Assembly (NCBI GenBank): GCA_021404565.1
Contig: JAAWWF010000028.1
Span: 186,001 to 250,000 of the forward strand
Source: Roseivirga sp.
GTDB taxonomy: Bacteria > Bacteroidota > Bacteroidia > Cytophagales > Cyclobacteriaceae
Direction of reading: 5' to 3'
Length of the DNA stretch: 64,000 bases
The notes beneath the pieces were generated by a model, which worked only from the letters and a program-made list of their open reading frames with translations, did not search any database and had not been told where the DNA came from. Numbering within the stretch: position 1 is the stretch's first letter; each line of letters begins with the position of its first letter. The translations under genes were made by a program, and so were the position numbers. Below are positions 30,404-34,339 of the stretch, piece after piece.

Positions 30404-31012
30404 TTACAATCCCCGAATCTCATGCATATAAAGGCCGGTATATTTCTTTATTGTCTTTTCATCTAGACCATCTTTCTTCATTTTCGCAGCAATGGTCAAA
30501 GCTTCCTTTCGCTGCTCTGCCTCAATTTTCATTTTGGTCATCACGGCTTTTTCACGGTCAACAACTTCATATAAGCCTGAACTCTTCAACTTATCAATGA
30601 TGCCTTCTCGTGAAAAACTATAGAATGTCTCTTCCGAGATAACCAGATGATCAATCACATCAATATTGATCAATTTGCCAACCTTCAGGATGCGGTCTGT
30701 AAAATCATGATCTGCTTTTGAAGGCTTCACGTCTCCACTAGGGTGATTATGAACCAAGACCATCGTGACCGCAAGTTTGTATATGCCCATCCTAAACACA
30801 TCAGGAGGGTTCACATTTACTCGGTTTACTCGCCCTAAAGCGACCAATTCAATGAACAGAATCTTCTTTTTGTTGTCCAGCCCAATCACCCAAAAGTGTT
30901 CCTGATTTCTGCGGATTTTATTCTCACGCAGCAACACTTGCTGCATCACCTTGTAAATATCTTCTGGATAGAGAAGCTTTACTTTTTGGTCTTTGGTTAG
31001 GCGAACATTCAT
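30404..31012 (-). CDS. RadC-like JAB-domain protein of mobile-element type
   Basis: 202 aa. The JAMM metal site VHNHPSGDVKPSKAD is near residues 104-118, and the following IDVIDHLVIS is typical of RadC. The N-terminal helix-hairpin-helix domain of full RadC is missing, as in copies carried on islands and plasmids. The C-terminal end (IAAKMKKDGLDEKTIKKYTGL) resembles the tail of Rpn/PD-(D/E)xK transposase-like proteins. Its role is unknown; such short RadC proteins are frequent in defence and mobile regions. It converges with the TIR gene. Confidence 0.85.
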   Translation of the reverse strand: MNVRLTKDQKVKLLYPEDIYKVMQQVLLRENKIRRNQEHFWVIGLDNKKKILFIELVALGRVNRVNVNPPDVFRMGIYKLAVTMVLVHNHPSGDVKPSKADHDFTDRILKVGKLINIDVIDHLVISEETFYSFSREGIIDKLKSSGLYEVVDREKAVMTKMKIEAEQRKEALTIAAKMKKDGLDEKTIKKYTGLYMHEIRGL

Positions 31013-31118
31013 CGATTCAAAAATACATATTTATATGCGCAGCAATTGCCACCAATTCAAGATAAAACAAAAGGAACGCATATTCTTATTTTGTGCAAAA
31101 TTATAAGGATTGATGTGC

Positions 31119-31477
31119 AAAAAAAGCCCCCTAAAAAGGGAGCGAAGAAATGCCAAACTCAAAGCAGCCCCACAACACACGGTGGGTATAAAGCCCTTGA
31201 CAACTGGACAAGGAAACCCGAAAGCGAGAAGGTTGAACATTTCGACCAGCATAAACCCAGCCCCGAATGAGCCGCACACGAACATTGAAGAAATAATGCA
31301 TAACAGAAAAGATTTAGAATGAACGCCCGGCTGAGTGCCAGGCAAAGCAATCCATCATGGAAGGAGTGAGGCAAATGCAAGGGGTAAAGCGGCTGAGGCG
31401 TTAGCCGAAGCGGCTTTGATTTACTTGCCCTTGTCATTTCCCGAGCCCGTTCCATAACTTTGCGGTATCTCTGGCAC
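31119..31477 (-). ncRNA. Candidate structured RNA, unit A
   Basis: Read on the minus strand it starts with a closed structured domain and ends in an intrinsic terminator (stem 31137-31143 with 31126-31132, then seven Ts at 31119-31125). Domain stems: GTGCCAG 31335-31341 with 31471-31477; ATGGAA 31357-31362 with 31450-31455; CAAGGG 31378-31383 with 31428-31433 and AAATG 31373-31377 with 31435-31439; AAAGC 31386-31390 with 31413-31417. A conserved TTAGC loop lies at 31401-31405. The same plan recurs in unit B with paired base changes. No promoter consensus was found. Confidence 0.6.
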
Positions 31478-31653
31478 GATCAATACCACGCATTCAAGCC
31501 CTTTTCATCTCTTTTAGGCTTTTTAAATCTCTTTTAATCCAACAGAAGTTTGATTGAGCGATGAAACAGAAGGGTAGAGGTGAGGCTATTTTGAAACACG
31601 GGTGCTTCCCTAATCCTTTTATTCTTTTCATCCTTTTATCCTCATCCATGCAC

Positions 31654-32008
31654 AAAAAAGGGGCACTACGGCCCCCAAGTTTTAAGAATGGCACACCACC
31701 ACAGTGCATTTTTGCAATACTTGTGCATAGCGAGCTTGCGGGCGCAATAACGATTAGAAGCAATAACTTCAAAGGATTTAAGACTATCCGGAAACTCCAA
31801 CTTTGGAATTTCCAAAACGACCAAATAAGTGTACATAATGAAAGAATTAAAGTGAAACCCCAGCAACAGCACCGGGGAAAGCATTCTCTCATGGATAAGG
31901 CGAAGAAAATGCAAGGCCCAAAGCGGGTGCAGCCTTAGCGAACCGGCTTTGGCTCTGTATCAGCCTTGCATTTCCTGAGACGTTCCATAATTTGGCTGGT
32001 CTCGGTGC
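31654..32008 (-). ncRNA. Candidate structured RNA, unit B
   Basis: Paralogue of unit A, about 530 bp away and in the same direction. Outer stem GCACCG 31869-31874 with 32003-32008; ATGGA 31891-31895 with 31984-31988; an 11-bp perfect stem AAATGCAAGGC 31907-31917 with 31963-31973; inner AAAGCGGGT 31920-31928 with 31942-31950. The minus-strand end is a GGGGC/GCCCC hairpin (31671-31675 with 31660-31664) followed by six Ts (31654-31659). Several outer-stem pairs differ from A on both sides while keeping pairing. CAAGGGTA at 32044-32051 is one base off a minus-strand -7 box. Confidence 0.6.
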
Positions 32009-32131
32009 ATATCATCACAGAATGTAAGCCTGACGGTACATTTCAAGGGTATCCTAACATTATGTTAAATAGAAATTTCTCACTACATATCATCGTTAAA
32101 CGAGATATTGAATAGGAAGGCGCGTTGGCCT

Positions 32132-32181
32132 GAAGGAATACGGGGCCGCGTCCGCCTGTGCGGCTGACCGATTATTCCTTC
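32132..32181. repeat. GC-rich hairpin in the island
   Basis: Arms GAAGGAATA (32132-32140) and TATTCCTTC (32173-32181) are perfect, and enclose a GC-rich interior with a second small stem (CCGC...GCGG). It lies between unit B and the tandem repeat. Function unknown. Confidence 0.7.
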
Positions 32182-32191
32182 TAGATTTTTG

Positions 32192-32218
32192 CATACTTTT
32201 TATCAATGAAAAAGTATG
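32192..32218. repeat. CATACTTTTT inverted repeat
   Basis: Ten-base perfect arms (CATACTTTTT at 32192-32201, complement at 32209-32218) with a seven-base loop. It has the form of a dispersed Bacteroidota palindrome but I cannot name it. Confidence 0.7.
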
Positions 32219-32339
32219 AGCCTAGCGGCTTGAGCGACCACAGTGGTAACTGAACAATAACAGATCGTCCCACAGGTTGCCAACCATCAATACACAACCA
32301 CAGCAAAAAGAAATGCTTCGGACTTATACGAGCGTTCAC

Positions 32340-32600
32340 TTACACAATCGCTGCAAAATCCAAACGCCTGAGATTTGCACAGAGAATTCCTTTCTGTACA
32401 ATCGCCTGAATACTGCCCGAGTTTAAAAGCACTGAGAATCGTGTATTTGAAAATGTCTGTACAATCATCCGTTACAGCGAAATTCTAACGCCTGAGATTT
32501 CCGTATTTGAAAACGATCTGTACAATGGGACACTGTAGTGAAATTCTAACGCTTTAGAATCGCATAGAAAATCCAAACTGTGAATCATATACGAGAATGT
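32340..32600. repeat. Degenerate tandem repeat, about four copies of 60-64 bp
   Basis: The block AACGCCTGAGATTT recurs in variants at 32364, 32428, 32488 and 32549 (spacings 64, 60, 61), and CTGTACAAT recurs at 32394, 32457 and 32518 (spacings 63, 61). In copies 1 and 4 the block sits in a small hairpin loop whose stem differs but still pairs (AAATC/GATTT in copy 1, ATTCT/AGAAT in copy 4). It directly precedes the right island inverted repeat. Not CRISPR: the spacers are themselves similar. Confidence 0.8.
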
Positions 32601-32604
32601 CGTA

Positions 32605-32649
32605 GAATAAATTTTTCTCTCGCGCGTGGGCAAAAAAGAAATATGGCAC
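32605..32649. repeat. Right inverted repeat of the island
   Basis: GAATAAATTTTTCTCTC (32605-32621) and AAAAAAGAAATATGGCAC (32632-32649) are the reverse complement of the two blocks at 25798-25814 and 25746-25763. The similarity stops at GTGCC on the outer side, which may mark the element end. Confidence 0.85.
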
Positions 32650-32682
32650 TGTGGGAAGACCAAGCGTGGCCGTGTGGCTGGA

Positions 32683-32729
32683 TTGGCGAATTAATTTTGG
32701 CTGCAAGCCAAGAGTAATTCATTCGCCAA
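32683..32729. repeat. Large two-level hairpin outside the right inverted repeat
   Basis: Outer arms TTGGCGAATTAATT (32683-32696) and 32716-32729 pair with one mismatch in 14. Inside, TTGGCT (32697-32702) pairs perfectly with AGCCAA (32706-32711). Confidence 0.8.
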
Positions 32730-32855
32730 AGCGGGCTTGCCGCGGGGCAATTTAACATTAACGCAAATTATATGACAAACTGCACAGTGTCTCAACATAA
32801 CCGCCTTTTAAAAGCTTCATTAGAAAACGAGAGCCATATAGTCCAGCTTTGCTGG

Positions 32856-32954
32856 TTAACATAATATCATTATAAGATCAAACGTCACAACGTTATAACC
32901 AATTGACAGTCAAATGATTAATATCAGTTTGTCTTATAATTTATATTATGTTAA
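32856..32954. repeat. Multi-arm palindrome at right island border
   Basis: Outer stem TTAACATAATAT (32856-32867) with ATATTATGTTAA (32943-32954), continued by ATTATAAGA (32869-32877) with TCTTATAAT (32932-32940). Two inner hairpins lie near 32881-32894 (AACG...CGTT) and 32901-32915 (TTGAC-A-GTCAA). It shares its end sequence and plan with 25544-25667. Confidence 0.8.
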
Positions 32955-33070
32955 ATAAAATTATGAACCCAAATAGAAAAGTCCCAACCTTCTCATATCA
33001 CGATATTTTCAAAACGCTTTCCTCTCACTAGTCATGCAACTCCTAAAAGAACTCTCATCATTGTGAACCA

Positions 33071-33100
33071 CAAAAAAAGCAGCACCTGCTCAGGTGCTGC
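33071..33100 (-). terminator. Terminator of the gyrA-TPR operon
   Basis: Perfect ten-base arms GCAGCACCTG (33079-33088) and complement (33091-33100), followed on the minus strand by a run of seven Ts (33072-33078). Confidence 0.85.
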
Positions 33101-33145
33101 CTTGAAATATTTTCAGACGCCTCTGGTTTATCTCAGAGAGCCTGT

Positions 33146-34339
33146 TTAATCATTACCCTCTATCTTGGCAATCCTGTCAAGAATTTCATCACGCTTATCA
33201 TCCATATCAAGCTGATCATAGATTGTGCTCAGTGGGTTTAAGAAGTAAGTATCCTCAGGACGTTGCACAATTCCTTTTTCAAAATATGGCATGGCCTCTC
33301 TGAATTTGGCATAAGCCTCTTTCTTCAGCTTTTGATACTCAGCATCGTCATCAGTGTTATTGGCAGCTTTTAATTTTTCATAGGCCAGATTATAGTGCAC
33401 AGACCCGGCAACATAAAGTGCATCATAATATTCAGGATCAAGACCCAGTGCTAAATCAGCTGCCTTGAGCGCCTCATCAAAATTCTCGCTGTTCCAATAC
33501 AGAAAAGCCATCGTATAATAAGTGGTCTTCGTTGCATTGCCAGAGGCGGCCACATCTTTCAAACCCTGGATAGCTTCATCCATTTTTTCAGATTTGATCA
33601 ATACGTCAATTTCGTAGTCCTTATAAAGCTTCTCATCCGGATACGCTTCCTTAGCCATTCTTATATATTTCAACGCATTATCGTAGTCCTCTTGCCTGGC
33701 AAAATAGATATCAATTAGTCCGTTATAGGCAAACTGAGTATTGGCAAACTTTTGTTCTTCTGGTAAGGCCTCGTTGAGCTCTATTACCCTCATGTAGTTT
33801 TCAAGTGCCTCCTTATCCTTGTCAGATCCATAAGCGCTATAACCTACGTAAAAACTCATAACAATGTCATCAGGAATTATTTTAGACGAAATCAGGAAGT
33901 ACTCATATGACTTGTCATACTCTTGCGCTTCAAAGTGAACATTTCCTTGTCTGTTAAGCATGTTTTGGAGGTACATTAACCCTTTACCGCCAGCAAGCCA
34001 AACATTCTCTGCATTCAGCACTACATCCTCCATCAAGTCGTCTTTCATCTTATCGCCACCTTTTTCAATGGCAGTCTCGAAATTATCAAAAGAGGCCTGC
34101 GCCAGGGAAAGCTGAGTTAAGTCCTCATTGAAAAGGTACATATTTGCTTGCCCGATGATCTTGTAAACCTCCGGGTTGTCCTGGGTTTCCGCATTGGCAG
34201 CACACTGCTTAGCCAGGTCGATGGCCGTAGTATAGTCCTTCTTATTAAAGGCTTTCTTGGCCGCTTTAAACGTTTTCTTTTGCGCATGTACTCCCAACAC
34301 CATAAGTGAAAGTAATGCCGTAAAAAATAGCTTTTTCAT
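33146..34339 (-). CDS. Secreted TPR protein downstream of gyrA
   Basis: 397 aa with a signal peptide ending near GVHAQ. The first repeat (KAFNKKDYTTAIDLAKQCA) and many following units mark a TPR solenoid: ALENYMRVIELNEALPEEQ, ALKYIRMAKEAYPDE, ALKAADLALGLDPEYYD. It ends with a Lys/Glu-rich helix. It lies 26 bp behind gyrA and ahead of a strong terminator, so it is probably transcribed with gyrA. A tetratricopeptide protein in this position is common in Cytophagales as far as I recall; its role is unknown. Confidence 0.85.
   Translation of the reverse strand: MKKLFFTALLSLMVLGVHAQKKTFKAAKKAFNKKDYTTAIDLAKQCAANAETQDNPEVYKIIGQANMYLFNEDLTQLSLAQASFDNFETAIEKGGDKMKDDLMEDVVLNAENVWLAGGKGLMYLQNMLNRQGNVHFEAQEYDKSYEYFLISSKIIPDDIVMSFYVGYSAYGSDKDKEALENYMRVIELNEALPEEQKFANTQFAYNGLIDIYFARQEDYDNALKYIRMAKEAYPDEKLYKDYEIDVLIKSEKMDEAIQGLKDVAASGNATKTTYYTMAFLYWNSENFDEALKAADLALGLDPEYYDALYVAGSVHYNLAYEKLKAANNTDDDAEYQKLKKEAYAKFREAMPYFEKGIVQRPEDTYFLNPLSTIYDQLDMDDKRDEILDRIAKIEGND

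Follow-up and report, generated by a model that had tools for sequence, protein, structure and literature searches.

The locus studied here raises a simple question: do two paralogous structured units on the minus strand of a Roseivirga sp. genome (8.57 Mb) encode RNAs, or does their structure have another meaning? They lie in the 64,000-nt stretch of DNA that was analysed as a whole (hereafter the window), and the original prediction had described them as two structured RNA genes in a non-coding island, possibly a guide, decoy or primer RNA. Units A (31119-31477) and B (31654-32008) are indeed found at these positions with a shared architecture and fold. Each is composed, on the minus strand, of a hairpin, a 56-codon ORF and an intrinsic terminator, and they align with 70% identity over 184 columns. 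The sequence holds the stems as described, the outer one pairing GTGCCAG with CTGGCAC in A (31471-31477 and 31335-31341; less conserved) and GCACCG with CGGTGC in B, and the inner one CAAGGG with CCCTTG in A and CAAGGC with GCCTTG in B. The terminators are also where minus-strand transcripts had been expected to end, at 31119..31142 for A and at about 31654..31675 for B, the latter directly 3' of the ORF B stop. The hairpins proper (minus strand) span 31353..31469 in A and 31887..32002 in B, and score 77.6 and 58.6 bits with the R2 covariance model, in which both window copies are training rows. Compared with dinucleotide shuffles, the RNA fold of B is clearly stable (z -4.49; 0/100 shuffles equally stable), as is the fold of its plus-strand DNA (z -3.81; 0/200). 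Unit A taken alone is only weakly above chance on either count (RNA, z -1.81 with 6/100 shuffles equally stable; plus-strand DNA, z -2.02 with 7/200). In line with the failure of the original prediction to match a known RNA family, Rfam yielded no match at gathering score, either in the window or in the 12 related loci searched. A permissive Rfam search of 31000-33200 returned a single match, to Xist, which at E 0.98 is due to chance.

The middle of each unit, previously taken as less conserved non-coding sequence, is in fact occupied by the 56-codon ORF. ORF A (MHYFFNVRVRLIRGWVYAGRN...SSLPF; 31131..31301, minus strand) has its stop codon within the terminator, and ORF B (MYTYLVVLEIP...ASNRYCARKLAMHKYCKNALWWCAILKTWGP) occupies 31666..31836 on the same strand. 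The frame stays open in homologues from two genomes of the same genus as the window genome (G016 and G003) and from the Flavobacteriales MAG UBA6057. ORF B proteins are 76-80% identical among these homologues with pN/pS values of 0.06-0.24 (six pairs), which indicates clear purifying selection on this gene. For ORF A, codon-aligned comparisons gave a pN/pS of 0.22 between G016 and UBA6057 and of 0.62-0.69 between the window copy and either of them; the A gene of the window is therefore under weaker constraint or has decayed in part. A conserved reading frame, which the original prediction had itself set beforehand as evidence against an RNA gene, is thus present in both units. Because of these ORFs, the reading as non-coding RNA genes is ruled out: the units are real and conserved, and the idea of related structured elements holds, but what was read as two RNA genes is a pair of short protein-coding genes, each preceded by one of these related hairpins.

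The two proteins are themselves poorly connected to known families. BLASTP detects no relationship between A and B; Pfam and NCBIfam assign no family to either ORF or to their close copies, for which PHROGs gave a single match that is not credible (E 0.43), and alignments of both proteins matched nothing in the viral contigs searched. Among 390 genomes of the order, 23 nevertheless hold a match to the A family at E<=0.01, and for 18 of these it reaches E<=0.001; many members of the family end in a ..S.LPF motif. The overlap of stop codon and terminator is a recurrent feature of A ORFs, seen in 11 of the 15 examined, with the terminator standing behind the stop in the other four. Weak matches of the B protein in four further genomes (G382, G131, G164 and G169) proved chance-like on inspection. 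Structure prediction reached a pLDDT of 56.9 for A and of 75.3 for the best of five models of B (41-52 for the others), and a PDB fold search with the predicted B structure gave no match at E<=0.001.

What units A and B have in common is the imperfect hairpin of ~120 nt that precedes each ORF. A first covariance model, built from 13 A and 4 B leaders, detected further copies in related loci, some of them before a DUF6943 gene or a different ORF of 54 aa. The covariance-model search of Bacteroidota genomes that had been suggested at the outset was then carried further with a second model: at E<=0.001 and with strict filters, it detected the hairpin in 33/390 genomes of the order (22/129 genera), 30/295 genomes of the class (24/156 genera) and 13/228 genomes of a phylum sample (6/115 genera), three overlapping samples whose tallies are not additive. 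The analyses below rely on 99 matches at E<=0.0001 from 81 sources, corresponding to 95 distinct hairpins once four identical ones are removed, and on a non-redundant set in which greedy clustering at 75% identity kept 32 of the 99 and dropped 67. The window's own genome holds a third copy (G000:C34:402643-402774; L095 14644-14775), which no ORF of recognisable A or B type follows. At its apex, the hairpin frequently shows a short conserved palindrome, AAAAATCTCC..GGTAGTATTTTT (e.g. L078 8520-8555), which is also seen in the hairpins of the SSB and PcfK rows and is possibly an UP-like or primosome element.

Across Bacteroidia, this hairpin occurs before unrelated genes: A-like, B, DUF6943, SSB, RadC and PcfK. 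When the next ORF within 260 nt of the 95 distinct hairpins is assigned by sequence pattern, it is A-like in 27 cases, DUF6943 in 26 and B in four; SSB and CTn-FRQMA follow with two each, and RadC-like, PcfK-like and 54-aa ORFs with one each. In the remainder it is an unnamed ORF (24) or there is none (seven), which counts against the explanation that we favour below. The second commonest partner, DUF6943 (PF22105; one copy checked with Pfam, 1.5e-47), is absent from the window units; its protein had no match among the plasmids searched, and its name was not found in the literature searched. The RadC-like ORF stands 43 nt behind its hairpin (L143 of G505) and is named from its SHNHPSGN motif, not from Pfam. 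At somewhat greater distance, a hairpin lies ~610 nt before PcfK and PcfJ (L168), and another (L155, at 6529) 329 nt before a same-strand row made of SSB (PF00436), DUF932, PRTRC_E, an unknown gene and Prok-E2_D. Two genomes thus have hairpins before SSB genes, one at a single locus (L147 of G696) and the other at two (L151 and L155 of G537). Of these three SSB genes, one is called by Pfam and two by likeness, and their presence behind the hairpins is in our view the most telling coincidence.

One structure placed before unrelated ORFs, mostly with a short gap to the start codon and with terminators behind those ORFs, is what would be expected of a cis-regulatory RNA leader, i.e. a hairpin transcribed as 5' UTR that controls several genes in the manner of a riboswitch or a protein-binding site. 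The strong covariation of the hairpin would fit such a leader as well. Indeed, standard pairs fill 91.2% of the 1496 paired cells of the 99-row alignment versus 64.2% after shuffling, and 405 of these cells are double changes versus a shuffled mean of 123 and 33-80 in slid controls, which bears out the compensatory changes and the selection on pairing that had been claimed from A and B, on a scale far beyond what a pair of copies can reveal. However, the kind of pairs points elsewhere. Read on the sense strand, the 1496 cells comprise 1353 Watson-Crick pairs, only 12 G-U (G-T) and 36 A-C, although G-U should be the better tolerated of the two in an RNA helix. The scarcity of G-U persists in the non-redundant 32 (4/497 cells). 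Pairing is therefore conserved but almost purely Watson-Crick, unlike RNA. Since an A-C cell on the sense strand is a G-T cell on the plus strand, the bias, if it is genuine, speaks for the plus strand, the template of the ORF, as the one that folds; it amounts to 36 against 12 in 95 rows and to 11 against 4 in the non-redundant set, where it is not significant (p 0.12). Besides the near-absence of G-U pairs, two observations speak against an RNA leader: no strict-consensus sense promoter was found in the 150 nt upstream of any of the 99 hairpins, and the conserved, unpaired GCAAAnnTA at the hairpin base matches a -7 box perfectly when read on the opposite strand. We consequently regard an RNA leader as unlikely.

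This -7 box is the second conserved property of the family. In Bacteroidota, TAnnTTTG is described as the -7 box of sigma-A promoters, located at -12 to -5 (PMC9723704, PMC7366714), and the conserved base of the 5' hairpin arm, GCAAAnnTA, reads TAnnTTTGC on the opposite strand. CAAAnnTA is found exactly in 78 of 99 5' windows of 38 nt (2.3% of random windows of equal size) and, at one fixed offset, exactly in 69/99 and with at least five of its six fixed letters in 84/99; its two n positions vary and the other six hardly do. In antisense orientation, the complete arrangement TTG-N17-23-TAnnTTTG is present in 50/99 hairpins, against 0/99 in sense and 1.2 in dinucleotide shuffles, although the covariance model was trained on the motif and its 99 matches are consequently enriched for it. 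The non-redundant 32 hold 16 full antisense promoters, 18 exact -7 boxes and no sense promoter; the lower share of exact boxes in this set is a point against the explanation favoured below. Moreover, the promoter stands at neither base of 86 other inverted repeats, taken from 44 of the 81 sources. Of the 13 A leaders of alignment A6, which were gathered by DNA or protein homology and not by the covariance model but were trimmed at the box motif, 10 carry the exact box.

In the window, hairpin A has on the plus strand an exact TAnnTTTG box at its base (TAACTTTG, 31455..31462) and a -33 element TTG 21 nt before it (31431..31433), within the conserved CCTTG core. Hairpin B has no exact TAnnTTTG, which counts against our main explanation. 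Its base shows the variant TAATTTG, one base short (31988..31994, plus strand), with a TTG 19 nt upstream (31966-31968, plus strand), and the same variant is seen in the G003 copy. A minor promoter motif of F. psychrophilum given in PMC9723704, SM5 (TAnnTTGY), likewise has its TA-to-TTG distance shortened by one base, but the B variant ends in G, not in the Y of SM5. The DUF6943 genes offered an independent check through a protein search in 12 genomes without a covariance-model match, which yielded two genes. One (L182) is preceded by a hairpin with a different core, scored weakly by the model (20.2 bits), that has the same box and an antisense TTG-N16-TAACTTTG at its base. The other (L181) shows the motif alone, 184 nt upstream, with two weak model matches elsewhere in the locus; its upstream region contains neither a full promoter nor a covariance-model match, which again counts against the main explanation.

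Such a complete promoter could simply work as it stands in duplex DNA, facing outward from the ORF and driving antisense or divergent transcription, the inverted repeat being incidental. The full TTG-N17-23-TAnnTTTG in half of the hairpins should indeed be recognised in double-stranded form. However, the sequence beyond the promoter differs between the copies compared, the motif is missing from the other inverted repeats, and an outward promoter would explain neither the co-inheritance of hairpin and ORF nor the covariation along the whole stem, so that we hold this possibility to be distinctly unlikely. The paucity of G-U pairs and the conserved antisense promoter together argue instead for a structure acting at the DNA level, and no longer for the guide, decoy or primer RNA of the original prediction.

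We therefore slightly favour the proposal that each unit consists of a single-strand-DNA promoter, a 56-codon gene and a terminator, working like the Frpo/ssi elements of plasmid F and other enterobacterial plasmids, which drive expression of SSB and further early genes as the plasmid enters a cell. The features on which it builds were computed directly. They are the covarying hairpins, a promoter present in antisense and missing in sense, the small ORFs and the unrelated partner genes, SSB included. The hairpin would fold when the plus strand, the template of the ORF, is present in single-stranded form. The folded stem would then provide a double-stranded -33 element (TTG) and spacer, and would end near -12/-11 of TAnnTTTG as a natural fork junction. 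Indeed, the consensus helix starts at the last A of CAAAnnTA and thus covers -12, and in most rows it does not reach -11: over 95 rows, the letter opposite that position is G 59 times, T 24 times and A nine times. The arm bearing TTG and TAnnTTTG would serve as non-template and the opposite arm as template, running on into the ORF, so that RNA polymerase with its housekeeping sigma factor could bind and read the latter arm into the small gene. In duplex DNA, the promoter has its back to the ORF and the strict search found none in sense, and the gene would thus be off. We infer that the polymerase uses the hairpin, that the DNA enters the cell as a single strand and that the island is mobile.

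Single-strand promoters have been described for plasmids such as F, ColIb-P9 and enterobacterial relatives (PMC11541004, PMC9849209). In plasmid F, Frpo1 and Frpo2 precede ygeAB and ssb, and the early rise of fluorescence is described as abolished once they are deleted (PMC9849209). The single-stranded form of Frpo folds and reconstitutes -10/-35 elements, and is needed for the early expression of ssb-F and its neighbours (PMC9849209, PMC11541004). The likeness with the present family extends to several features. Both are long imperfect hairpins whose stem contains housekeeping-sigma boxes and which stand before early genes or, here, candidates for early genes. In the folded strand the boxes are aimed at the ORF, complete in half of the hairpins here, exact in A and one base short in B. 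No strict-consensus sense promoter occurs in any of the 99 hairpins, as in the stretch upstream of them. In addition, Frpo stands before ssb in F as hairpins here stand before SSB genes in three loci, and the annotated region of F holds SSB and DUF932 genes, as does the gene row of L155. There are also differences. blastn of both window units at E<=1e-5 found no homology in 72,556 plasmid records including F (nor any match in phages), and the boxes are of the Bacteroidota type, TTG/TAnnTTTG, versus TTGACA/TATAAT in Frpo. The hairpins here also occur in chromosomal islands, unlike the Frpo/ssi of conjugative plasmids. In the Frpo regions of F, where the best antisense boxes (8/12 letters) lie on the gene-proximal arm, the geometry could not be brought into line with that of our hairpins.

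The same folded strand could alternatively act as an sso/ssi site, on which the polymerase primes synthesis of the complementary strand, the small genes being mere passengers. Its geometry would be identical to that of a single-strand promoter, and the title of Masai and Arai (1997) reportedly calls Frpo both a promoter and a primer site. Yet the element recurs in the same orientation upstream of ORFs, including SSB, RadC-like and DUF6943, as a promoter would, and we strongly doubt that priming is its main role. Another class of single-stranded hairpins is found in integrons, whose attC sites are imperfect, bulged single-strand DNA hairpins beside varied ORFs, with the core GTTRRRY/RYYYAAC. 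An attC-like site that recombines as a single strand and gathers ORFs would fit the DNA-like hairpins, their recurrent bulges and the different ORFs behind them, as well as the A/B units of G016, which recur in tandem and flank cargo on either side. By contrast, the hairpins here are tied to a downstream ORF and terminator and carry conserved promoter boxes. Within the A family the hairpin stays with the following ORF and it is the preceding gene that varies, and inspection by eye revealed no attC core boxes in the hairpins. A cassette recombination site is thus very improbable.

The surroundings of the window units are of the mobile or defence type, as first noted. The minus-strand order is B, A and a RadC-like gene (30404..31012; Pfam PF04002, 8.2e-34), next in line after unit A; the plus strand nearby carries a helicase, an Mrr nuclease and a TIR-like gene just under the Pfam cut-off. 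In G016, A/B copies flank an AAA ATPase gene, a DUF4276-like gene (weak, below the cut-off) and a DUF4062 gene; A units stand by a TIR-STING gene with a likely CD-NTase in G413, and by metal-efflux genes in G274 and G532. Several A units accordingly have defence or metal-efflux genes as neighbours, not transfer genes, which counts against a single-strand promoter. Leading-region-type neighbours, SSB-DUF932-PRTRC and PcfK/PcfJ, are found in other genomes and not among the window ORFs scanned. Since a general Pfam scan revealed neither a relaxase nor a transfer gene among the 20 window ORFs submitted to it, the window units may be carried-over parts; the proteins of other loci given to Pfam showed no relaxase either.

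Other features were observed around these loci. In L078 (9879-11833), a TIR-STING effector identified by Pfam adjoins a likely CD-NTase upstream of the A unit and on the same strand; CD-NTase is our own reading, Pfam having given a sub-threshold DUF7516. Upstream of B, 32055-32980 is a conserved non-coding block in which ATTTAACATAA/TTATGTTAAAT-like motifs occur several times as inverted pairs, which we take to resemble the XerD arm of dif, and cargo differs between genomes just past TATTTAACATAATGT in this block. Related blocks occur in the same genome at 393.5 kb and 402.8-403.5 kb of G000:C34. A palindrome-bearing repeat of 60 nt (window 32175-32235; L032 5628-5688; L024 7824-7881) is 95% identical between the window genome and an Owenweeksia MAG and 92% between the window genome and G016, most neighbouring matches being at 66-77%. 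Finally, in nine loci (L074-L081, L085) the gene of an unknown protein of ~250 aa (MARQ...) converges on the A unit, followed by DUF5675 in eight of them (L074-L081) and, in L078, by a short holin-like ORF recognised by eye after these genes. It is multi-copy in G413 and G073, whereas no copy turned up in the genome that holds the window.

To conclude, the structure shared by units A and B belongs to a family of hairpins found before short or unrelated genes, for which a role as single-strand-DNA promoter is the explanation that we retain. A literature search under the phrase of single-strand promoters in Bacteroidota found none, although Frpo and Bacteroid* do co-occur. Judging from neighbouring genes, A, B and DUF6943 could be early or anti-defence proteins. 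The wider proposal is, to our mind, evenly balanced: Bacteroidia would have their own class of single-strand promoters, with no sequence relationship to Frpo, that combines the TTG/TAnnTTTG boxes of the phylum with a helix stopping at the -12/-11 fork; the A, B and DUF6943 proteins would be widespread, unrecognised factors of early entry, perhaps anti-defence, that could be listed by hairpin search. If true, the hairpin would offer a search handle for early genes such as DUF6943 and would allow a direct bench test. It would also provide a major gut and marine phylum with a promoter class from which one could tell the genes of mobile DNA that are used first on arrival in another host.
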